Part shown: one piece after another, positions 21,084 to 36,395 of the stretch
Layout of the letters: each line of letters opens with the position of its first letter
How positions within the stretch are numbered: position 1 is the first letter of the stretch
Assembly: GCA_017469425.1 (NCBI GenBank)
Contig: JAFUGJ010000024.1
Span: 51,738-115,737 of the forward strand
DNA: 64,000 bases
DNA from: Bacteroidales bacterium
GTDB taxonomy: Bacteria > Bacteroidota > Bacteroidia > Bacteroidales > UBA932
Direction: 5' to 3'
Notes under the pieces: generated by a model
What the model was told of the DNA's origin: nothing
Seen by the model: only the letters and a program-made list of their open reading frames with translations
The model's database searches: none
Made by a program: the position numbers and the translations under genes

Positions 21084-22148
21084 ATGCACACTGTGACCAG
21101 AACATGTCCCTGCTGCGGCAGCGCCTTCACCACGGATAACCCGAGGCAGACATACTGTAGCCATACCTGCCGCAACACTCAGAACATGCGCGTCAAAAGG
21201 CAGCGCAAGCAGGCACGTAAGGCAAAAATTGAAGCGATGGCCGCCCGTGATGCATTCGAAGGCAAGAGCCACCTCTCCATCACCGAAGCCGCCCAATACC
21301 TCGGAGTATCCCGCCCTACCCTGTACGCCCGCATCAATGCCGGAGAGCTCACGCCGCTCAAAGTATCCTCCCGCACCATCCGCATTCCCATTGACCAGCT
21401 CAAAGCGGACAGCCAGATCCAGCCTCAACCCAGCAAAGGCGACTTCTCCATCCTCATATCAAAGGCCGAAGTCCTCCTCAAATACAACATCTCCGAATCT
21501 TGGCTGATGCGCAGGATGAAAGAAGAAGGCATCCGCCCACGCATAATCAAAGGCAAAGCCTTTTACCCCAAGAAGGACGTGGACCGCATGTTCAAGCCCA
21601 AACCAACCTACAACAAAGACGACTGGTACAATGCCGAAGAGCTGGTGCGGAGCGAAGGTTTCACGCGCAAATACCTTTCTTCATACGTGCGTGAGAAGAA
21701 GATAGACTGCAAGCGAATCGGACGGACGATGCTCGTTGACAAAAAGCAATGGGACCGCAGCCGCCTCTTCCGCGGCGACATAGAAAAGAACTACCTCACC
21801 GTGGACCAGGCCCGCAAGCACTATCATCTGGCCCAGAAGACCTTCTACGACAAAGTGCACGCAGCAGGAGTTGAAGGCATCCGTACCGGCGTGAATGTCT
21901 ATTACAAGATAACGGACCTCGACCCTCTCTTCAAAGACAAGACCCCCAAAATCCCCGCAGAAATCCGCAAAAACTACATGCGCAGCGGCGATGCCCTCAA
22001 ACACTACCACCTCGGCCAGAAACGCTTCAGCGAAGAAACCCAGGCCGCAAGCGTGACCAAAGTCCGGACAGAAGGAAACTACGTCTGGTACAAGAAAGAC
22101 GAACTCGATAAACTCTTCAAAAAGATAAGCGACAATGGGAGCAACTAA
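21084..22148 (+). CDS. Zinc-ribbon protein with five tandem HTH_17/MerR-like domains (integrase-linked regulator)
   Basis: 354 residues. The N-terminus has Cys8, Cys10/11, Cys25 and Cys29 in a small zinc-ribbon arrangement, then a basic segment (RVKRQRKQARKAK). Five similar helix-turn-helix units follow at about 64-108 (LSITEAAQYLGVSRPTLYA), 121-172, 180-227, 236-285 and 297-347, each with the winged pattern of excisionase/MerR-like folds. The stop overlaps the integrase start by 14 bases, so the two are coupled. It could be a recombination directionality factor and regulator binding several half-sites at once; function is inferred from context only. The half-sites upstream fit autoregulation. 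Confidence 0.78.
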   Translation: MHTVTRTCPCCGSAFTTDNPRQTYCSHTCRNTQNMRVKRQRKQARKAKIEAMAARDAFEGKSHLSITEAAQYLGVSRPTLYARINAGELTPLKVSSRTIRIPIDQLKADSQIQPQPSKGDFSILISKAEVLLKYNISESWLMRRMKEEGIRPRIIKGKAFYPKKDVDRMFKPKPTYNKDDWYNAEELVRSEGFTRKYLSSYVREKKIDCKRIGRTMLVDKKQWDRSRLFRGDIEKNYLTVDQARKHYHLAQKTFYDKVHAAGVEGIRTGVNVYYKITDLDPLFKDKTPKIPAEIRKNYMRSGDALKHYHLGQKRFSEETQAASVTKVRTEGNYVWYKKDELDKLFKKISDNGSN

Positions 22149-23244
22149 AGTAAAACTTCGGCAGCGCTTGTTGCCAAGCGGCAAGATCACCCTCTACCTG
22201 GACTTCTACCCGCCCCTCAGAGACCCGAACACCCGCAAATACGTCCGGCACGAATACCTGGGCATCTACCTCGTGAACAAACCCAAGTTCCAGACCGACA
22301 AGGAAGCCAACAAAGAAAAGATCCGCCAGGCCGAAGCCATCCGCTCCGAGCGCGAACTGGCCATCATCCGAGGGCAGTTCGACTTCCTGGACAAGACCAA
22401 ACTCAAGATGGACTTCCTCGCCTACTTCAAAACCAAGCTGGACACCAAGGACCAGAAGTGGATTCGTGTCTATGACCACTTCTACAACTACTGCGGCGGC
22501 CATTGCAAAATGGGCGAAATCGACGTCCCCTTCTGCGAAGGCTTCAAAGAATACCTTCTCACCGCAAAGCAGCTCAGGCATCCCGACAAGACCCTCTCCC
22601 AGAACTCTGCAGCCGGATACTGGTCCACCTTCCGCGGCTTCCTCAAAATCGCTTATCAGGAAAAACTCCTGCAGGAGAACGTCAACGACTACCTTGAAGC
22701 CATTGACGCCGTGGACGGCCGCAGAGAATACCTTACCCTTGAAGAAGTCCGCCAACTGGCCCAGACCCCCTGCTTCACCCCGGACCTCAAGGAAGCCTCC
22801 CTTTTCAGTTGCCTTACCGGACTGCGCATCAGCGACATACTCGCCCTCACCTGGAGCAACATCGTAAAAGCCCAGGACGGCGGCTGGTGCATCCGGCTCA
22901 AGACTGAAAAGACCGACACCGAGGCCACCCTGCCGCTCTCCCGGGAAGCCTACGAACTCTGCGGAACGCCCGGCACCGGACTCGTCTTCAAGAACCTCAA
23001 GCGCCACTACACCCAGAAGCCACTCCAGGACTGGCTCAATGATGCCGGCATCAGCAAGCACATCACCTTCCACTGCTTCCGCCACACCTTCGCCACCCTC
23101 CAGGTAGCCGAAGGTACCGACATATACACCGTCTCCCACCTGCTCACCCACGCCAACGTAGGCACCACCCAGATTTATGCCGACATCGTGGACAAGAGCA
23201 AGAGAGACGCAGTTGAACGCATAAAGATTAAGGACACCAAATAA
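22135..23244 (+). CDS. Tyrosine recombinase (integrase)
   Basis: 369 residues. N-terminal arm-binding region (about 1-90), SAM-like core-binding domain (90-190), and catalytic domain with Arg231 (LTGLRISDI), His313 and Arg316 (FHCFRHTFA), His339 (LLTHANVGTT) and Tyr348 (QIYAD): all catalytic residues are present. It should integrate and excise the element by site-specific recombination. It starts 14 bases inside the HTH gene, and a hypothetical gene follows by 7 bases. The position right next to mnmE suggests that the left att site is in 20796-21083. Confidence 0.95.
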   Translation: MGATKVKLRQRLLPSGKITLYLDFYPPLRDPNTRKYVRHEYLGIYLVNKPKFQTDKEANKEKIRQAEAIRSERELAIIRGQFDFLDKTKLKMDFLAYFKTKLDTKDQKWIRVYDHFYNYCGGHCKMGEIDVPFCEGFKEYLLTAKQLRHPDKTLSQNSAAGYWSTFRGFLKIAYQEKLLQENVNDYLEAIDAVDGRREYLTLEEVRQLAQTPCFTPDLKEASLFSCLTGLRISDILALTWSNIVKAQDGGWCIRLKTEKTDTEATLPLSREAYELCGTPGTGLVFKNLKRHYTQKPLQDWLNDAGISKHITFHCFRHTFATLQVAEGTDIYTVSHLLTHANVGTTQIYADIVDKSKRDAVERIKIKDTK

Positions 23245-27564: not shown

Positions 27565-28431
27565 TTACTTCTTTTTGGGAAGTTTCGGTGAAGTCTTCTC
27601 AATTCTCTTCTCTTCTGAAGCAACGCGACGTTCAAGTTTCTTGATATCTTCTGCCGGCGGAAGTTCTTCTGGGCGGATTCCTCGTTTACCAAGCATCTCC
27701 CTGACACTTTGATTATTCTGCATATGCTCGTTCGTTATGTCCCGTTCGCCGTAGAGATTTTTCCCTTCCACGTTATAGTTGGTCATTTCTGTGGCCAGGT
27801 TCTTAGCAGCAATAGTCAACGTCGGAAGAAAATCTGCCAGCGGCCGGCTATCTTTCACGCCTAGCCGTTTCTTCATATCTTCGGTTGTATGGCCACCAAA
27901 CAGGACGGCATCGCCTTTGGAACGTATTCTACCAAAGCCCTTGTCATCCACTCCGCGCTCATAGATATTCTGCGACAACTGTTTCTCAGATGCACGGAGG
28001 CGATCACGAGATTCAAGACGCGCGATGTAGTTTATACGTTCCTCGATGAGTTCCGCTTTGCGGGTCTGGACGGCGAAATAGCTCTGAGCGAAAGCTACAG
28101 GTTCTTTTTTCGGGTCGCCATTCTGGGCTATCAAGTAGCAAGCATAGCGAGTGAGCATGAAATCTTGGACATCTCTGTTTGCACCGCTTCCCAGCTTGAC
28201 CATTTTCGTGACCTCACGAAAATGGTCGTCTACGTTGATTCCCTGTGTGCTGCAGGATTCAACTGCGCGGTTAATAGCGGATTGAAAGTTTTCCCAACGG
28301 GCATAGCCCAGGACCTCCTGCAGTTCTCTGGCAAACCAAACCTCAACTTTCTCTTTCCCATTGTCGCTTTCGATGTAGGTTGCGATGGCATCAAATGCGC
28401 CTTTATACTGTATAATGCTCTGTTTATCCAT
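27565..28431 (-). CDS. dinD: DNA damage-inducible protein D (BRO-like N-terminus)
   Basis: 288 residues of the DinD family, SOS-linked in E. coli and reported there to affect RecA filaments. The N-terminal BRO-like domain contains VWFARELQEVLGYARWENF, then DDHFREVTKMVKLGSG, RYACYLIAQNGDPKK and FAQSYFAVQTRKAELIEE. The C-terminal half has FGGHTTEDMKKRLG and a Lys-rich tail. Full length, on the strand opposite to its neighbours. The segment for DHFREVTKMV is a DNA palindrome (28198-28227) duplicated past the stop codon. A full -33/-7 promoter with a dyad in the spacer precedes it. Confidence 0.92.
   Translation of the reverse strand: MDKQSIIQYKGAFDAIATYIESDNGKEKVEVWFARELQEVLGYARWENFQSAINRAVESCSTQGINVDDHFREVTKMVKLGSGANRDVQDFMLTRYACYLIAQNGDPKKEPVAFAQSYFAVQTRKAELIEERINYIARLESRDRLRASEKQLSQNIYERGVDDKGFGRIRSKGDAVLFGGHTTEDMKKRLGVKDSRPLADFLPTLTIAAKNLATEMTNYNVEGKNLYGERDITNEHMQNNQSVREMLGKRGIRPEELPPAEDIKKLERRVASEEKRIEKTSPKLPKKK
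28198..28227 (-). repeat. Coding palindrome within dinD
   Basis: GACCATTTTCGT (28198-28209), loop GACCTC, ACGAAAATGGTC (28216-28227): a perfect 12-bp stem that encodes HFREVTKMV on the minus strand. Its near-identical copy lies at 27518-27547. Confidence 0.85.
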
Positions 28432-28450
28432 AAGCCAATAAGTTTACGCA

Positions 28451-28482
28451 CAAAGATAGCCATACTTTCTGGGCTATCCAAA
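28451..28482 (-). promoter_or_regulatory. dinD promoter with operator dyad in the spacer
   Basis: On the minus strand TTTG (28482-28479), a 20-base spacer and TATCTTTG (28458-28451): a full consensus match. GATAGCC (28455-28461) and GGCTATC (28472-28478) form a 7-bp inverted repeat with a 10-base centre that overlaps the -7 box and the spacer, ideal for a repressor. Leader about 13-20 bases. Confidence 0.7.
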
Positions 28483-28545
28483 GTCATTACCTGATCTTTT
28501 TTAAGCCGATGGCTCCTTTCTACTGGTAATTTCGGGGAAAATCGC

Positions 28546-28553
28546 TAAATTTG
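28546..28553 (+). promoter_or_regulatory. -7 box ahead of the hairpin RNA and defence operon
   Basis: TAAATTTG, followed by CCTTTGC; transcription would begin near 28560. No TTTG was found at the -33 position, so the promoter may be weak or activated. Confidence 0.5.
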
Positions 28554-28559
28554 CCTTTG

Positions 28560-28800
28560 CAATCCACAAGGAAAGCAATTTACATACCGAAAGCGTTTAG
28601 CTTTATTCCGTATTGGCGAATCTCGACAATTCACAATTTGATACAGGAATACAGTGCAACGCTTGCGCTGGCTATAATTTGGGCTTCGGCTCACGCTATA
28701 GCAGTGCGAGCCATAATTGTACTTATTCGTATCAATCGGAGTCGAGACCGTGCCAATAGGATAAGTCGCTAAGGAGGCTCGCACTTTCGCGTAATATAGA
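28560..28800 (+). ncRNA. Candidate long-hairpin structured RNA upstream of the defence operon
   Basis: Bases 28588-28789 pair in one nested hairpin. Stems from outside in (5' arm/3' arm): 588-593/784-789, 597-601/768-772, 602-605/762-765, 608-609/759-760, 611-617/752-758, 621-627/741-747, 638-644/729-735, 647-651/724-728, 653-659/717-723, 661-670/702-711, 672-676/697-701, 680-684/689-693 (all plus 28000), about 70 pairs, closed by C(UUCG)G. Non-Watson-Crick pairs I see (G656-U720, U664-G708, G667-U705, G682-U691, U602-G765) are all G-U on the plus strand, which favours plus-strand RNA. It may be an independent RNA or the operon leader. No known RNA family was recognised and no reverse transcriptase gene is near, so a retron is not supported. 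Confidence 0.65.
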
Positions 28801-28807
28801 GAGTATC

Positions 28808-28824
28808 GCTCCCCGGGCCGGAGC
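28808..28824 (+). promoter_or_regulatory. Small leader hairpin before the helicase start
   Basis: GCTCC (28808-28812), loop CCGGGCC, GGAGC (28820-28824). The 3' arm contains GGAG, 14 bases before the ATG at 28838, so the stem could hide a ribosome-binding site. Weak: Bacteroidota rarely use a strong Shine-Dalgarno. Confidence 0.35.
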
Positions 28825-28837
28825 ACAAAATGCGACC

Positions 28838-31800
28838 ATGGCCCAGATATACGACAACATCGAGATAAAATTCACGGAAGGCCTTAGAGGCATCATCTCC
28901 AGCCTCGGAGTGAAACGAGTGGACTTTTGCGTGGGCTATTTCAACCTCCGTGGTTGGAATCTCGTAGTTGACCAGATTGACTCCCTCCCCGGTGACAACG
29001 TATATGAAAATGACGAAAGGCTATTCCGCACCTGTCGACTCCTGATTGGAATGCATCGTCCGCCGGAGGAACTGATCCGCCAGCTATACAGTGGCGAAGA
29101 ATATCATCCCGATGCCAATGATGTCCAAGACGCAAAACTCCAGATTGCAGAAGATTTTCGCAAGCAGTTGCTTCTAGGGCTTCCGACAAACGCCGACCAG
29201 GCAACCCTTCGCAAACTCTCCAAGCAGCTGAAAGAAAAGAAGGTCTGCGTCAAGTTGTATCTCCGCGAGCCTCTTCACGCCAAACTCTACCTTGCCTATC
29301 GCCCTGATGACCATTTCAACCCGATTCCGGCTATCCTCGGCAGCAGCAACTTGACCTACTCCGGTCTAACGAAACAAGGTGAACTTAATGCCGAGTTCGC
29401 CGACAGCGATAGCGCAAAGAAACTCTCTGCCTGGTTCGATGACCGCTGGAATGACCGTTTTTGTGTCGACATTACGGAGGAACTTATCAAGGTAATCGAT
29501 GACAGTTGGGCCAGCGAAAATGAGATTTCTCCGTACTACATCTATTTGAAAACGGCATACCATCTTAGCGAAGAAGCCCGTATGGGCGTGAAGGAGTTCT
29601 CTCTTCCGCCTGAATTCCGCAAGGACTTGTTCGATTTTCAGCAGACCGCGGTCAAGATTGCCGCACGTCATCTCCATAACGAGAAACGAGGCGGCGCTAT
29701 GATTGGTGATGTGGTCGGTCTTGGTAAGACCATCACTGCCTGCGCCATCGCAAAACTCTATGAGAACACCTACGGCAGCAACACGCTCATAATCTGCCCT
29801 GCCAACCTACAGGAAATGTGGCAGAAATACCGCAAGAAATACGATCTGAAAGCTGACATCGTCTCAATGGCAAAGCCCATTGACATAGCCAACGCAAGAT
29901 ACTACAAACTCATCATCGTTGATGAAAGCCACAATCTCCGTAACTCAACCGGAGCGCGTTACCAGAACATCCAGAGCCTGATACAGAAGCAGAACAGCAG
30001 CGTTCTTCTCCTGACGGCAACGCCGTACAACATGGATTTCCGCGACCTGAGCAATCAACTCAAACTTTTCATCGAAGAAGACCAAGACCTCGGCATCCGC
30101 CCGGAAATATATATCAAATCCATTGGTGGCGAACGGGAATTCCTGATGAAACACAACGAAGTGTTCATCCGCAGCATAAAAGCCTTCGAGCAAAGCCCAT
30201 ACGTCGAGGATTGGAACGAGTTGATGAAACTCTTCCTCGTCCGTCGAACCCGCACTTTTATCAAGGACAACTACGCCAAGAAAGACGATAGCAACGGACG
30301 CCGCTATCTCGAATTCCCGGATGGTTCAAAGTCATACTTCCCTGACCGTATTCCAAAGTCCATCAAGTTCCCAACCGTCCATGGAGACCAGTATAGTCGG
30401 CTCTACTCAGATGAGATGATAAATCTGATGGAATCCCTGAAACTCCCCCGCTACGGCCTCATTCATTACATCAGCGAGGAACGGACTGCCGATGCATCAA
30501 AACCGGAGAAACTCCTCATTGAGAATCTTTCCCGTGCAGGGGAACGTATGATGGGTTTCTGCAAGAGCACATTCTTCAAGCGAATGGACAGTTGCGGCTA
30601 TTCTTTCCTGCTGACCTTGTACCACCACCTGCTACGCAATGCCGTATTCATGTATGCGCTGGATAATGGTCTCGACCTCCCGATAGGCGACGAAAACTCC
30701 CTTCCGGACGATTTTATAGATGACGAGGATACCAATATCTCCATCTTCGGAGATAATTCCGACCAGTATCGCGCATCCGGCTCCCTGCTCGCTGCCAAGC
30801 CCATTCCTACTGATCTGTCTGTCTATGCGACATTGGCAAAAGAACACTACGAGACCATCAAACTCAAAAACAATGTTTCCTGGTTGAAACCGACATACTT
30901 CAAGCGGACGTTGAAACAGCAGCTCAAAAAAGACTCTGATACCATCATTCAGATGATTGAACTATGCGGCATCTGGAACCCGTGCGAAGACCGGAAGATT
31001 CAAAGCCTCTACGACTTGCTTAACAAGGCCCACCAGAAAGACAAGGTCATCGTGTTTACCCAGTACTCCGATACGGCCATGTATCTGTATACCCAACTCA
31101 AACAAATGGGAATGAAACAGATATACTACGTAACGGGTGATAGCAAGAATCCTACGGAATCCGTTGACCGCTTCTCTCCCAAGAGCAACGGACAGGAAGT
31201 TGAACCTGTCGACCAGTATCGTGTCCTCATTGCAACGGACGTGCTCTCGGAAGGTCAGAACTTACAGGATTCCCACGTCATCGTCAACTACGATATGCCC
31301 TGGGCCATCATCCGCCTCATCCAGCGAGCCGGTCGTGTTGACCGTATCGGACAGGAATCCAAAGAGATATACTGCTACTCCTTCTTCCCGGCAGACGGCA
31401 TCGAAGACATTATCCGGCTTCGCAGCCGCCTCAATAAGCGTATCAACGAGAACGCAAATGTAGTCGGCTCCGACGAAGTGTTCTTCGAGGGCAATGAAAA
31501 GAACCTGATGAATCTCTACAACGAGCAGAGCGGCATCCTTGACCAGGAAGAAGGCGATTCTGACGTAGACCTTTCGTCGCAGGCATATCAAATCTGGCAG
31601 AAAGCCATCAAATCCAATCCCCGCCTCAAGGAAATCATACCGAACCTCAGCGATATGATATACTCCACCAAGAAGGCATCACCGAACCGTCCTGACGGAG
31701 TTATAACCTTCTGCCGCACCTACAACGACTTCGACATTCTCAGTTGGTACGACCGCGCAGGAAATCTTGTCAGTCAGTCCCAGAAGCGGATTCTTGCAGC

Positions 31801-32230
31801 TATGGAATGCGGACCGAAAGAACCGCGTCTCGACCAGATGCCTGACCACTTTGACCTCGTAAAGAAATCGGTTGATGATATTGCTGACGATGTCCCCTCC
31901 TCAATGGGCGTTCTCGGCAACCGTTTCAGCACACGTTACCGTATCGTACAACTGCTGGAGAGTTTCTATGGACAACAAACCAACATCTTCTTCGATGTGG
32001 ACTATAAGCAGCAGGTCAAATTGGCCATTGACGATATTTACAACTACCAACTGATTGAGACCACGAAGACCGTTATTGGCCGGATGCTCAACAAGGGTGA
32101 TTCTCAGGAAGAAATCGTCGAGGCCGTCCTTGACTTTCGCAAAAAGGGTGTCCTATGCCGCAAACAGGACAGCAACATCAAGAACAAATCCCCAAAGATC
32201 CTCTGCTCGATGGGGCTCGTAAGACAATAA
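28838..32230 (+). CDS. PLD-like nuclease fused to SNF2-type helicase (defence)
   Basis: 1130 residues. An N-terminal phospholipase D-like nuclease domain (about 1-210) has a single HxK motif (His147, Lys149 in LHAKLYL) and GSSNLTYSGL near 168-177. The helicase follows: motif I GLGKT (294-298), motif II DESH (362-365), motif III LLTATPYN near 392-399, and the C-terminal part with VIVFTQYSD, VLIATDVLSEGQNLQDS and LIQRAGRVDRIGQ. SNF2 translocases with PLD domains occur in defence systems such as DISARM (DrmD and DrmC), where methylase, helicase and PLD protein are cooperating parts. It is followed after 6 bases by a methyltransferase gene. No known system name is assigned. Confidence 0.88.
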   Translation: MAQIYDNIEIKFTEGLRGIISSLGVKRVDFCVGYFNLRGWNLVVDQIDSLPGDNVYENDERLFRTCRLLIGMHRPPEELIRQLYSGEEYHPDANDVQDAKLQIAEDFRKQLLLGLPTNADQATLRKLSKQLKEKKVCVKLYLREPLHAKLYLAYRPDDHFNPIPAILGSSNLTYSGLTKQGELNAEFADSDSAKKLSAWFDDRWNDRFCVDITEELIKVIDDSWASENEISPYYIYLKTAYHLSEEARMGVKEFSLPPEFRKDLFDFQQTAVKIAARHLHNEKRGGAMIGDVVGLGKTITACAIAKLYENTYGSNTLIICPANLQEMWQKYRKKYDLKADIVSMAKPIDIANARYYKLIIVDESHNLRNSTGARYQNIQSLIQKQNSSVLLLTATPYNMDFRDLSNQLKLFIEEDQDLGIRPEIYIKSIGGEREFLMKHNEVFIRSIKAFEQSPYVEDWNELMKLFLVRRTRTFIKDNYAKKDDSNGRRYLEFPDGSKSYFPDRIPKSIKFPTVHGDQYSRLYSDEMINLMESLKLPRYGLIHYISEERTADASKPEKLLIENLSRAGERMMGFCKSTFFKRMDSCGYSFLLTLYHHLLRNAVFMYALDNGLDLPIGDENSLPDDFIDDEDTNISIFGDNSDQYRASGSLLAAKPIPTDLSVYATLAKEHYETIKLKNNVSWLKPTYFKRTLKQQLKKDSDTIIQMIELCGIWNPCEDRKIQSLYDLLNKAHQKDKVIVFTQYSDTAMYLYTQLKQMGMKQIYYVTGDSKNPTESVDRFSPKSNGQEVEPVDQYRVLIATDVLSEGQNLQDSHVIVNYDMPWAIIRLIQRAGRVDRIGQESKEIYCYSFFPADGIEDIIRLRSRLNKRINENANVVGSDEVFFEGNEKNLMNLYNEQSGILDQEEGDSDVDLSSQAYQIWQKAIKSNPRLKEIIPNLSDMIYSTKKASPNRPDGVITFCRTYNDFDILSWYDRAGNLVSQSQKRILAAMECGPKEPRLDQMPDHFDLVKKSVDDIADDVPSSMGVLGNRFSTRYRIVQLLESFYGQQTNIFFDVDYKQQVKLAIDDIYNYQLIETTKTVIGRMLNKGDSQEEIVEAVLDFRKKGVLCRKQDSNIKNKSPKILCSMGLVRQ

Positions 32231-32236
32231 CCACGT

Positions 32237-35200
32237 ATGGCACTCACCAAAAAGCAATTTGCCCAGTACCTGAAAGAAGCCGACTTCCGTACCCTTTTCA
32301 TCGAAGAAATGGGATGGAACAAATACAGCACAACCCTTGCTGACATCCCTGCCATCATCCTTGAAGGTAAAGAGTTCAATATCAAGACTATTGCTCACCG
32401 CAACGGTTATCAGATTCTTCTGTGCATTGTAAAAGAACTCCCCACCAACTCCCTCTGCAAGAAACTGGACACCAAACTCCGCCGTGCCGCACAGGACTAC
32501 ATCTGCATCTTTGTGGTCCCCGGTACCGAACATCACCTTTGGGCAGCGCCTGTCAAGACTAACGAAAAGCGGGATATAGTTCTCATTGAATATGCCACTA
32601 CAGACCAGGCACAGTTCCTCTTCGAGAAGATTTCCGGACTGTCCTTCGGTATTGATGAGGTAACAACCATCGTCGATGTCAAGGAACGAGTACAGGGAGC
32701 ATTTGCTGTCAATTCCGAGAAGATTACCAAGGACTTCTACACCGGCTTCAACAAGCAGCACAAAGCCTTTGCCGAGTTCATTACCGGCATCGATGACCAG
32801 GTGGCCGCAAAAGACAACAAGAACAAGCAGTGGTACACCTCCGTCATGCTCAATCGCCTGATGTTCTGCTACTTCATCCAGAAGAAAGGTTTCCTCGATG
32901 GCGATGAGAATTACCTTCGCAATAGACTCCATTGGGTGCAGGAACTGAAAGGGAATAACCAGTTCTTCAAGTCATTCTACAAAGGCTTTCTGGTTCAGCT
33001 CTTCCGCGGCGGCCTCAACTCACCCAAACATGACAGTGACTTTGAAGACATCTATGGCCGTATTCCGTACCTTAACGGCGGTATGTTCGATGTCCACCAG
33101 ATAGAGCACGACTACGCCGACATCGACATTAAGGACGAAGCCTTTGAGTCCCTCTTTGAATTCTTCGACAAATGGCGCTGGCATCTTGACACCCGAGTAA
33201 CGGCTTCCGGACGAGATATCAACCCCGACGTGCTGGGCTACATCTTCGAGCAATACATCAATGACCGCGCCCAGATGGGCGCCTACTACACTAAAGAAGA
33301 CATCACGGAGTACATTGGACGCAACACCATCATTCCGTATCTGTTTGATGCTGTGTCAAAGAATTATCCTGAGGCATTCGCCGAGGATGGCGAGTTCTGG
33401 TCATACTTCAAGGAAAAGGGCAAGGACTTCATCTATGATGCCGTCAAGAAGGGTGTAGATGAGCCTATTCCGGACGACATCGCACAGGGGCTTGACACAA
33501 CGGCCCCCGGCCTTCTGGAACGCCGCAAATCCTGGAACAACCCCACGCCTGCAAAATATGCACTGCCTACTGAGATTTGGCGCGAGACCATCGAGCGTCG
33601 GCAGCGGTACGAAACCATTACGGACTTGATTTCCACTGGCGAAATCAAGTCCGTGAACGACTTCATTACCTATAATCTGAACACGCCAAAGATTGCGTAT
33701 GATTTCCTGAACAATACACAGGATAAGAAGTTCATTGAATTGTTCTATGCCGAACTCCAGAAGGTCACCATCCTTGACCCTACCTGCGGCTCCGGTGCTT
33801 TCCTTTTCGCTGCACTCAATCTCCTGGAGCCTTTATACGAGGTATGCATCACCCGAATGGAGGAATTCAATAGTCAGGATTATTCTTGCTTTGCTGAACA
33901 GCTCTCGGAGATTCAGAACAAGTACCGCAGCAATATCCAGTACTTCATCTACAAGAGCATCATCCTCCGGAATCTCTATGGCGTTGACATCATGGCCGAG
34001 GCCGTGGAGATTGCCAAGCTACGACTGTTCCTGAAAATGGTGGCCGTTGTGGACGTTGACAAGCGTGCTGACAACCTGGGCCTTGACCCGCTGCCGGACA
34101 TCGACTTCAATATCCGCTGCGGAAATACACTCGTGGGATATGCCACGGAAGCCCAACTGTACCGTGATTTGGATATTGCTACCGATTTCCTCCAGCAACT
34201 TGCCAATCAGGAATTAAAGGAGAAATTACACGCACAGCTCCAGGACGTAGCAGACACATACGAGGTTTTCCGGATGGAGCAGCTGAGCAAAGAATCAGAC
34301 ATTCAAGTACTGAAAGACGCCAAGGCCTCTCTGAACACAGAACTTGCCCAACTCAATACCCTGCTGAATGAGCACCTGTATGCATCAACCGCCCAGATAG
34401 ACTACACCAAATGGCTGGAAACCCATCAGCCATTCCACTGGATGGCAGAATTTTATCAAATCTTGCATAATGGCGGATTTGATGTTATTATTGGAAATCC
34501 GCCCTATGTCGAGTACTCGAAGCGTAATGTGCGCTACACGATAAGCGGATATGACACTATTAAGAGTTCCAACCTATATGCCTTTGTCTTTGAACGCTCA
34601 TTCTACCTAACATCGAAAAAGATAGCATTTATTGTTCAAATGTCCGCAGTAGGAACGGAATCGATGCGTTCGTTGCAGCAATTCTTGTTGAGTAATACGT
34701 CAATGCTTCATTTCGGATGCTTCCCAGAACGACCTAAGCAGCTGTTTGATGGTGCTTGTATCGCACTATCAATTATACTCTGCGACCACTCTATGACTGA
34801 GGATAGATTGCTATACGGAAGCGGCGTGTCAAGAACGACAGACGAAGGAAGACCATCCTTGTTCTCCTCTCTGTCGTATATCTCAATTCCCAAATCATCT
34901 TTTCTTCCTGACTATTTTCTCTTTCCAAAGTTCAAGTCTGCGATTGAAATAGAAATAATTCAGAAACTGTTTAAGGATAAGCCAATCATTAGATATACTA
35001 CACCTATTGCATCGAATAATACTATTTCATATCGTACTGCAGGGGGCCGATATTGGAAGATTGTGTTGAATCGTCCTTTCGCAACCGAATCAACTTCAAA
35101 CAAGACAAAGTATATAAGAAGTGATATGCCTTCTAACGCATTGGTCGCAATTCTCAACTCCAATACGCTCTGGTGGTACTATGTCAACTATTTCGACCTG

Positions 35201-35506
35201 TATAATTTCAAGGATTACATGATTTTCAATTTCTGTTATTCGGTTAAGGAAGACATCGCAGAACTGGAGAATTTGGGAGAACAGTTGATGGAATCATTTG
35301 AAGCTCACGAAGTTGTTAATACTCAATACATCAAGTCAAAACAAAAAGAATCAATTTTTGAGTCATTCAATCCACAATTATCAAAAGAAATCATTGACCG
35401 AATCGATATGATCCTTGCCAAACACTACCAATTCTCTGAACAGGAGTTAGACTATATCATAAATTATGACATTAAGTATAGAGTAGGTGGAGAATTGAAC
35501 GAGTAG
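32237..35506 (+). CDS. Eco57I/PglX-type adenine-specific DNA methyltransferase (defence)
   Basis: 1089 residues. An N-terminal alpha/beta region (1-about 150) resembles the start of type IIG/BREX-type proteins; the methyltransferase core has motif I DPTCGSGAFLF near 513-523 and motif IV NPPYVEY near 754-760, typical of N6-adenine methylases. The C-terminal third (after about 760) is more A+T-rich at DNA level and should contain the target-recognition domain. Paired with the helicase just upstream (6-base gap) and the small third gene 1 base downstream, it probably marks self DNA. Whether it also cuts DNA cannot be told; no clear PD-(D/E)XK motif was identified. Confidence 0.88.
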   Translation: MALTKKQFAQYLKEADFRTLFIEEMGWNKYSTTLADIPAIILEGKEFNIKTIAHRNGYQILLCIVKELPTNSLCKKLDTKLRRAAQDYICIFVVPGTEHHLWAAPVKTNEKRDIVLIEYATTDQAQFLFEKISGLSFGIDEVTTIVDVKERVQGAFAVNSEKITKDFYTGFNKQHKAFAEFITGIDDQVAAKDNKNKQWYTSVMLNRLMFCYFIQKKGFLDGDENYLRNRLHWVQELKGNNQFFKSFYKGFLVQLFRGGLNSPKHDSDFEDIYGRIPYLNGGMFDVHQIEHDYADIDIKDEAFESLFEFFDKWRWHLDTRVTASGRDINPDVLGYIFEQYINDRAQMGAYYTKEDITEYIGRNTIIPYLFDAVSKNYPEAFAEDGEFWSYFKEKGKDFIYDAVKKGVDEPIPDDIAQGLDTTAPGLLERRKSWNNPTPAKYALPTEIWRETIERRQRYETITDLISTGEIKSVNDFITYNLNTPKIAYDFLNNTQDKKFIELFYAELQKVTILDPTCGSGAFLFAALNLLEPLYEVCITRMEEFNSQDYSCFAEQLSEIQNKYRSNIQYFIYKSIILRNLYGVDIMAEAVEIAKLRLFLKMVAVVDVDKRADNLGLDPLPDIDFNIRCGNTLVGYATEAQLYRDLDIATDFLQQLANQELKEKLHAQLQDVADTYEVFRMEQLSKESDIQVLKDAKASLNTELAQLNTLLNEHLYASTAQIDYTKWLETHQPFHWMAEFYQILHNGGFDVIIGNPPYVEYSKRNVRYTISGYDTIKSSNLYAFVFERSFYLTSKKIAFIVQMSAVGTESMRSLQQFLLSNTSMLHFGCFPERPKQLFDGACIALSIILCDHSMTEDRLLYGSGVSRTTDEGRPSLFSSLSYISIPKSSFLPDYFLFPKFKSAIEIEIIQKLFKDKPIIRYTTPIASNNTISYRTAGGRYWKIVLNRPFATESTSNKTKYIRSDMPSNALVAILNSNTLWWYYVNYFDLYNFKDYMIFNFCYSVKEDIAELENLGEQLMESFEAHEVVNTQYIKSKQKESIFESFNPQLSKEIIDRIDMILAKHYQFSEQELDYIINYDIKYRVGGELNE

Positions 35507-35507
35507 T

Positions 35508-36395
35508 ATGGATATGACTGTTTTTGAAGAAATCATCGCTCGGCTGAACTATTTCAAAGACATCGAGGCAATTATGCAATTTTCTGCTGATAGTAGTGTC
35601 ATAATAGAGGAACTTTGTACCTATACATTGATGTGCAGCAGAAAGATCATCGATCCAAATCCTGACAACTATCTCCAATATGACCCAGATGACGCAGTCG
35701 TCGTTGGTTTACTGGTCAAACAACACAAAGGTCTTGAACAACTTATTCAAGCGCATAATTCTGGAAATCTTGATGTTGCATGGCCATTCATCAGGATCAA
35801 TTATGAGGCTTATATAAAGATGCGTTACTTAATCCGTGAGGGTAAATCTGCTCAGCGTGACTATAGGCTTAAATCCTACAAGAATCGCTACAAAATGTAC
35901 GAGAAGTACAATAGGAAAGGGAACGGGGTCACGGATGTTTTCTTATACAAATTTTTGGAAGATATTAAGGTAGAGGGATTCACGATACAAGACTTTGAAG
36001 CCATAAAATCATGGAAAGCATTCGGAGGGAAATCATTTGAAAACCTGATGAAAGAGTTTGAGTCTGCGGAATTGTACCTCCCAAGTTACGCACTTGTCTC
36101 GGATTCCATACATTCTGATTGGGGTGATATTCGGCAACTGCATCTGCAAGAATTAGATGGCAAATTTGCTGTCAAGATTGAGCCGGAAAAGTATCATGGC
36201 AGAGTCATTCTTTCGTGCGTTTATCTCCACCTGCAGGCACTCGAGAATTTCCTTCAGTGGTACAGAACAGATTTTGGCGCAGAAATAATCCACGCAGAAG
36301 ACCTCGTAGCAGAGTTAATACGCGTCATCGGAATCCTAAATTCCTATTTCATAGGCATCTATGAGAACAAGCCTGATGTCTTTGTTAGAAATTAG
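35508..36395 (+). CDS. Hypothetical protein, third gene of the defence operon (HEPN/DUF5677-like helical)
   Basis: 295 residues, almost all helical. The sequence WPFIRINYEAYIKMRYLIREG followed by Lys/Arg-rich helices and SDSIHSDWGDIRQLHL resembles DUF5677/HEPN-type proteins, which have a Ser/His-rich segment and sometimes RNase activity. The similarity is weak and no RxxxxH motif is certain. The ATG is 1 base beyond the methyltransferase stop, so it belongs to the operon. The A+T content is higher than in most of the window and like that of the methyltransferase 3' end, suggesting the two were acquired together. Confidence 0.65.
   Translation: MDMTVFEEIIARLNYFKDIEAIMQFSADSSVIIEELCTYTLMCSRKIIDPNPDNYLQYDPDDAVVVGLLVKQHKGLEQLIQAHNSGNLDVAWPFIRINYEAYIKMRYLIREGKSAQRDYRLKSYKNRYKMYEKYNRKGNGVTDVFLYKFLEDIKVEGFTIQDFEAIKSWKAFGGKSFENLMKEFESAELYLPSYALVSDSIHSDWGDIRQLHLQELDGKFAVKIEPEKYHGRVILSCVYLHLQALENFLQWYRTDFGAEIIHAEDLVAELIRVIGILNSYFIGIYENKPDVFVRN

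Follow-up and report, generated by a model that had tools for sequence, protein, structure and literature searches.

The hairpin at positions 28588-28789 of the window (the whole 64,000-nucleotide stretch of Bacteroidales DNA that was analysed) is real and, judging by its homologues, is one of a family of structured RNAs found across Bacteroidota. The explanation that we favour, as probably correct though by no means firmly so, is that the helicase/type IIG operon has this feature as its 5' leader RNA, which belongs to an orphan family of cis-acting, attenuator- or riboswitch-like elements. The simple hairpin is one among alternative folds of this leader RNA.

Structure of the leader RNA

The initial annotation had drawn by eye a hairpin of about 200 nt and some 70 pairs, and ViennaRNA comes close to that drawing: it gives 28588-28789 a single long arm with 73 nested pairs (-76.7 kcal/mol) and a C(UUCG)G loop at 28684-28689. 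The five wobble pairs given with the drawing are too few, as the minimum-free-energy fold has eight G-U pairs (six in the fold of 28560-28837). That longer stretch folds at -93.3, compared with -71.3 +/- 5.1 for 200 dinucleotide shuffles, none of which is as good (z -4.3); the comparison with shuffled sequence, suggested beforehand as a check, thus favours an RNA. The raw energy is unexceptional: across the whole 64 kb, 21 of 426 windows that are 201 nt long equal or beat the hairpin. The nested fold also misses pairs that are kept in the family, because a kissing loop and a pseudoknot (S2:S3) cannot be represented in it. The parts of the leader in the window copy are as follows.

28546..28553 (+): -7 box of the TAnnTTTG (sigma-A) type, with a predicted transcription start at about 28558
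28554..28577 (+): variable 5' hairpin between promoter and core, a small inverted repeat seen by eye in many homologues
28588..28788 (+): conserved RNA core, matched end to end by covariance models R1 (182.9 bits; a model to which this copy contributed) and R2 (155 bits)
28589..28597 (+): 5' strand GAAAGCGTT, which can pair with CTTTC at 28784-28788 (P0)
within 28589..28597 (+): AAGCGTT of the 5' strand, which can pair with AACGCTT at 28658-28664 (P1, 7 bp in the window)
28611..28617 with 28752..28758 (+): stem P3, 97.8% paired, with four Watson-Crick types
28618..28632 (+): hairpin A (GAAT/ATTC), 99.3% paired, whose loop strand 28621-28627 kisses hairpin B
28638..28644 with 28729-28735 (+): arm P5, from covariation in nine sequences and a duplex test
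28661..28669 (+): strand S1, pairing with S2 in the long hairpin arm, 88.8% of cells paired
28684..28689 (+): C(UUCG)G loop of the distal arm, from sequence and fold
28703..28712 (+): strand S2, complementary to S1 and to S3
28722..28728 with 28759-28765 (+): P8, CTTATTC with GGATAAG, 83.1% paired, outside the model fit
28737..28750 (+): hairpin B (CGG/CCG), which kisses hairpin A through its loop strand 28741-28747
28776..28785 (+): strand S3, which could replace S1 in pairing with S2, 86.6% of cells paired in the family, outside the model fit
28809..28823 (+): 3' hairpin P10, whose loop GGGCC (28815-28819) can pair with GGCTC of S3

The sequence of the distal-arm loop is not conserved across the RNA family. 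The pairing of S3 with the 3' hairpin loop (P9) looks convincing by eye in many homologues but is weakly supported, since its median duplex z is only -1.1 (0.2 in the window).

The leader RNA structure as a whole is well supported by the family alignment. The covarying pairs that the initial annotation had proposed to look for are there and again favour an RNA. Across 101 aligned sequences all four Watson-Crick types occur at each of six pairs of P3, and the loop-loop helix of 7 bp between hairpins A and B is 99.2% paired, with changes on both sides at six of its seven pairs. In 40 of 41 loci a search that used no model found a perfect distant complement of 6-7 bp to the hairpin-A loop, and nine versions of this sequence occur. 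Hairpin B has 285 of 303 cells paired compared with 260.4 +/- 2.3 after shuffling. In P5 all four pairs counted change on both sides (nine sequences, 92% paired), and the duplex of this arm, in a test that includes part of S1:S2, has z below -2 in 96% of the 101 sequences. The alignment, A4, was fitted to P1, P3, P4, P5 and P6, so that the fit had no hand in S2:S3, P8, P0 and hairpins A and B only. Among the fitted helices 19 of 21 pairs show both-side changes, in 488 cells compared with 130 +/- 13 in shuffled alignments and at most 133 in slid ones; the unfitted S2:S3 and P8 give 114 such cells compared with 47.5 +/- 5.3 shuffled and at most 49 slid. P0, which joins the 5' strand to the 3' end, is paired in 84.9% of cells, and a complementary run of at least 6 bp for P1 is present in 72/101 sequences (about 20% in shuffled controls).

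Shuffles preserve base composition and nothing more in the duplex z tests (113 sequences), in the hairpin B and P5 tests and in the window S2:S3 test. For the duplex z set 113 of 117 sequences were kept (L111, L156, L164 and L169 dropped), and for the U-tract and strand sets 170 of 175 (the same four and L271b dropped). The 41 + 76 loci used are part of those found. L136 and L163, which are the places of L090 and L063, are both omitted; L173-L206 were scanned and not added; and L283 is the same place as L133.

Counted on the plus strand over five helices of the 101 sequences, G-U pairs fill 320 cells and A-C only 54, which indicates that the selected molecule is the plus-strand RNA. The plus strand also folds better in 154 of 170 copies, and so the direction first assigned to the hairpin from its wobble pairs holds for the RNA family. 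The same bias bears on the suggestion that the feature acts as DNA, whether as a cruciform or as a site of recombination or cassette insertion. Such an element might well occur in many copies near diverse cargo, and the window copy does lie in an integrase-bearing island. It would not be expected to favour G-U over A-C on one strand, nor to keep a promoter box and an ORF start at preferred distances, and we give the suggestion hardly any weight. A DNA cruciform was rejected on the G-U to A-C bias. A stand-alone hairpin or MITE was also rejected, because the homologues share primary motifs, promoter box and ORF spacing beyond the inverted repeat.

Position between promoter and first gene

The box noticed in the initial annotation is TAAATTTG at 28546-28553, and the ATG of the helicase is at 28838, 49 nt past the core. 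PMC9723704 gives -12 to -5 as the consensus position of the TAnnTTTG box. Within 75 nt upstream of the core, TAnnTTTG occurs in 108 of 131 loci, compared with 17 of 490 background windows. The other 23 loci comprise nine with a CCTATGACATA-like box and 14 with neither. The CCTATGACATA-like box, which replaces TAnnTTTG upstream of the core in, for example, L096, L106, L121, L128, L142 and L078, possibly serves another sigma factor. In the 50-nt gap between core and gene only two of the 131 loci have TAnnTTTG.

Taking as the ORF start the first ATG, no more than 250 nt on, with a reading frame of at least 60 codons, we find it 45-60 nt after the core in 48/108 cases (117 loci), compared with 32/337 from random points, and in 26/52 cases of a further set (58 loci); more than half of the loci lack one there. 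Another spacing figure, 57/103, was obtained by choosing the in-frame ATG nearest to 52 nt and is biased to the peak, and the unbiased recount is preferred. Since the distance is a preferred one and the gap almost never holds a box, the downstream gene appears to need the leader transcript. The position of the RNA as a leader between promoter and first gene is well supported. The initial annotation had left the choice between an RNA component of the defence system and a long regulatory leader; the upstream box, the preferred ATG distance and the gap almost free of boxes speak for the leader. At one locus (L006, about 1501-1600) only the promoter and the first 60 nt or so are recognisable and the rest differs, as in a truncated or diverged leader.

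After S3 a U-tract (at least five T in the next 8 nt) follows in 116 of 170 copies, compared with 10 of 170 thirty bases further on. The window copy has no U-tract, CACTTTCGCGTAA following S3 instead, and neither have its close relatives L004 and L057.

A promoter box of its own, a terminator-like U-tract and the large share of loci without an ORF start at the preferred distance could also be those of a stand-alone small RNA that acts in trans, with its own promoter and terminator, and to which the downstream gene is incidental. The excess of ORF starts over random points and the two boxes in 131 gaps make such an RNA improbable.

The operon in the window and the cargo of other copies

The genes behind the leader, with the nearest integrase, are these.

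28838..32230 (+): first gene, PLD and SNF2-type helicase, 1130 aa (PLDc_2, SNF2-rel_dom, Helicase_C)
32237..35506 (+): second gene, type IIG restriction-modification-like protein, 1089 aa (Eco57I, MmeI_Mtase; PADLOC REase_MTase_IIG, E 4.7e-247)
35508..36395 (+): third gene, DUF5677 protein, 295 aa (Pfam)
22135-23244: tyrosine integrase, beside the window operon

Primase-like genes after mnmE also lie beside the operon, which looks as if it sits in a mobile island. Two of the primase-like proteins match PADLOC RTasVirE-PriCT2, a match that we read as the primase part, because Pfam gives only PriCT_2, DUF3987 and BT4734-like domains. Between the primase-like genes and the operon, a DinD-like (BRO-N) gene at 27568-28431 on the minus strand diverges from the leader. 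A retron had been thought unlikely from the start, and Pfam finds no RT domain in 17 neighbouring proteins. With no Rfam match either, a retron or other RT-associated ncRNA was rejected.

As the RNA adjoins the operon on the same strand, it might be thought a guide, scaffold or sensor for the helicase or the type IIG protein. In none of the four helicase homologues examined, which come from four other genera and show 48-68% identity, does the 1.5 kb upstream contain the RNA, and the sole match in their loci, at 6 bits, is on the other strand; the RNA also precedes lipoprotein, SusC-like, signalling and mobile-element genes. We therefore conclude that the leader RNA is not a part of the defence system. 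This half of the initial choice falls, the chance that it is correct being minimal, and an RNA part of a PLD-SNF2/type IIG system was rejected. The initial annotation had regarded homologous loci without the hairpin as telling against its proposal in general; these four count against the defence reading only.

Copies elsewhere in this genome, like those of other genera, precede unrelated cargo, which ranges from lipoproteins and SusC to NusG-like, mobile-element, signalling and defence genes. The 116 operon proteins contain 109 Pfam families, none in more than six proteins (FHA in 6, BACON in 5, leucine-rich repeats and zinc ribbons in 4, PP2C and trypsin-like in 2). A second set, 52 first genes, contains 47 families, none in more than three (SusC-like TonB receptors, RibD-like and DUF6383 in 3 each, BspA repeats in 2, and GntR, LytTR and NusG-like in one each). 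Some operon proteins are recognised by defence-type models (type III RM, Hma, AbiLi and others), as a rule a single protein for each model. A crude home-made rule, with the ATG chosen nearest to 52 nt, marks about 45 of the 117 first ORFs as apparently exported. At four loci in Flavobacteriia (L055, L056, L212 and L214) the divergent upstream genes share similar N-termini; these genes are probably transposase-like (IS1595).

Distribution of the RNA family

A nucleotide search found a second locus in the window's genome, identical on two contigs, and the RNA in six other genomes among 101 searched in the genus. Contigs C39 and C75 of genome G000 share one identical locus, by duplication or as an assembly artefact (contamination estimate 6.29). 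The first alignment and model R1 were made from nine copies. Within the genus R1 finds the RNA in 48 of 151 genomes, and phylum-wide in 3 of 296; R2, made from 101 sequences, finds it phylum-wide in 28 of 395 genomes and, by genus, in 15 of 171, the window's own genome being counted each time. These tallies are lower bounds, since few candidates (6-16) were scored per genome, compared with up to 150 in the control genomes and in those reached through named records. With this deeper scoring seven of eight genomes from named records have the RNA, with 2-25 matches each, the weakest at E near 0.001: Dysgonomonas sp. 520 (25), Phocaeicola sartorii (12), Xylanibacter caecicola (12), Segatella copri iAQ1173 (10), Parabacteroides faecalis (8), Dysgonomonas alginatilytica (2) and Flavobacterium cerinum (2). 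Pedobacter cryoconitis has no match under the same scoring. The window's genome has at least six distinct copies.

A short motif pattern finds at least 114 stretches in the named genome collection, and among the matches listed the covariance models confirm the RNA in 104 of the 114. The ten unconfirmed, again among the matches listed, are seven labelled outside Bacteroidales/Flavobacteriia and three labelled Bacteroidota (L113, L117, L184). None of seven control genomes labelled outside Bacteroidales/Flavobacteriia has a match (Latescibacterota, Treponema, Campylobacterales, Ignavibacteria, Paenibacillus, Spechtbacteria and Paceibacter); some taxonomies put Ignavibacteria inside Bacteroidota. 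A MAG labelled Clostridium (G850; L177, 7484-7738) has two copies, perhaps through a mislabelled bin, a mixed bin or transfer. The plasmid and phage collections gave no matches. The exact motif pattern occurs in only two IMG/VR contigs; contigs L091 and L092, called viral, carry copies of 48 and 44 bits.

Two possible partners for one strand

S2 pairs with both S1 and S3 at six or more of eight positions in 80 of 101 sequences. The mean, 6.51, compares with 6.08 +/- 0.05 when the S3 rows are shuffled, an excess of only 0.43 of 8 positions. By duplex energy S2:S3 is the stronger helix in 73/101 copies, and over 113 sequences it has a median z of -3.3. The same helix in the window copy hardly beats shuffled S3 (z -1.2, 35/300 as good; -0.8 in another test). 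S2 is at least 60% paired within the central hairpin in only 70 of 113 sequences. As the 5' strand, S1, S2 and S3 can pair with one another, they could make a four-way junction, and since S2 fits either of the nearly repeated strands S1 and S3, such a junction could migrate.

Several suggestions can be made regarding what this arrangement would do. In the one that we favour, the leader would be transcribed from its own sigma-A-type promoter, and P3 would close a riboswitch-like junction bearing the kissing hairpins A and B and the long P5/P6 arm. S2 would serve as the output module by pairing either with upstream S1 or with downstream S3. In most homologues S3 with its U-tract would resemble an intrinsic terminator placed some 45 nt ahead of the start codon, and the core would sense a common signal that biases S2, towards S1 for read-through or towards S3 for termination or reduced translation. 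If correct, one signal would gate many unrelated accessory operons. The loop of such a terminator would be unusually long, which counts against the terminator reading. Since the window copy has no U-tract, its output may act on translation or on RNA stability instead.

Dual complementarity does not prove switching, because the same strands could form a static four-way junction. The leader may then be a non-switching one, a pseudoknotted junction that stabilises the mRNA or presents an A-rich start region to ribosomes. The 5' end, S1, S2 and S3 can indeed pair in a ring, the distance to the first ATG is a preferred one, there is an A-rich stretch at +36 to +40, and in the window copy the start region is less paired than the leader (probability of being unpaired 0.54 on average, compared with 0.28). 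A static junction would not need S1 and S3 to be near repeats across the whole of S2, however, and it leaves the U-tract after S3 unexplained. It is a live rival of the switching leader, and one that we regard as unlikely without dismissing it.

Comparison with known RNAs

Kissing-loop aptamers are known in the purine and cobalamin riboswitch classes. Our RNA resembles kissing-loop riboswitches and attenuators in having an aptamer-like junction with a loop-loop helix, followed by a putative alternative-pairing module; a further likeness, found in most of its copies, is a U-tract before the first gene. It differs from them in that it has no Rfam match, its cargo has no common pathway, and its S1 and S3 nearly repeat one another within what may be a four-way junction. 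A conserved aptamer-like structure in the 5' UTR, as expected of a riboswitch, is found in the family; a single pathway, as is also expected, is found neither in the first genes (n=52) nor in the operon proteins (n=116), which argues against an ordinary metabolite riboswitch. For this reason, and because ligand binding is hypothetical, membership of that class is not claimed; at most, the family would work like a riboswitch.

Phage put RNAs, bacterial EAR and UpxY-type systems are antitermination leaders. By analogy with put and EAR, the RNA could be one for processive antitermination, letting RNA polymerase through long acquired operons. Like these systems it lies right after the promoter of operons that are often long and often surface-related, and one of the 52 first genes, by sequence that of L290, is NusG-like. 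Unlike them it is present in many genera, with heterogeneous cargo and a preferred start-codon distance; this spacing would not be expected of an antiterminator, and several first genes are in short operons. Antitermination is also a live rival, and we consider it quite unlikely. At L290, in Phocaeicola sartorii, the RNA lies upstream of a gene that appears NusG/UpxY-like, with a gap of 240 nt to the ATG.

Rfam 15 has no match in the window at the gathering score, none for 28450-28900 at E up to 10 and none for ten homologous loci at E up to 5; for seven further loci it gives only five matches, every one below the gathering score. Nor is the motif described in the open-licence PMC papers searched, excluding supplements, in which the core motif strings are absent as well. 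The main texts of PMC11109978 and PMC8632094 contain none of four Bacteroidota names searched, and the accessible portions of PMC7366714, PMC10994844, PMC9723704 and PMC13370916 hold nothing that fits the leader RNA. Some copies may be listed as plain 5' UTRs in supplementary tables of transcriptome papers. Structured 5' elements of Flavobacterium without names or Rfam hits, described in PMC9723704, fall outside the comparison made here. The motifs reported for Bacteroidetes by Weinberg 2010 (PMC2864571) include 6S-flavo, Bacteroid-trp, Bacteroidales-1, Bacteroides-1 and Flavo-1, with Rfam numbers. They are structured RNAs of the same phylum, like our family, and those with Rfam numbers match neither the window nor any of 17 homologous loci. 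The table of that paper gives no Rfam number for Bacteroides-2 and GUCCY-hairpin, which therefore lie outside a comparison based on Rfam.

Implications

A more far-reaching suggestion is that this one family acts as an RNA-based global regulator in Bacteroidota, with up to about 25 copies per genome, gating acquired and surface-exposed operons to one shared signal by branch migration of the four-way junction. We put it forward tentatively, as possible and on balance doubtful. The operons in question are those of lipoproteins, SusC transporters, capsule, mobile elements, signalling and anti-phage systems. If this is so, the family would be an RNA counterpart of xenogeneic silencers or of RfaH-type activators; and if one signal drives all the copies, defence, capsule, nutrient uptake and mobile elements would be linked in a dominant gut phylum. 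Whatever its function, this is a pseudoknotted and strongly covarying leader RNA that is absent from Rfam 15. It can readily be tested, with dozens of natural copies, clear mutable pairs and cultured hosts; records of cultured species with matches include Segatella copri, Phocaeicola sartorii, Parabacteroides faecalis, Dysgonomonas and Flavobacterium cerinum. At L269, where about 96 nt separate the two copies, and at L160 (3106-3292 and 3488-3681), the RNA occurs twice in tandem before one gene, much as tandem riboswitches do.
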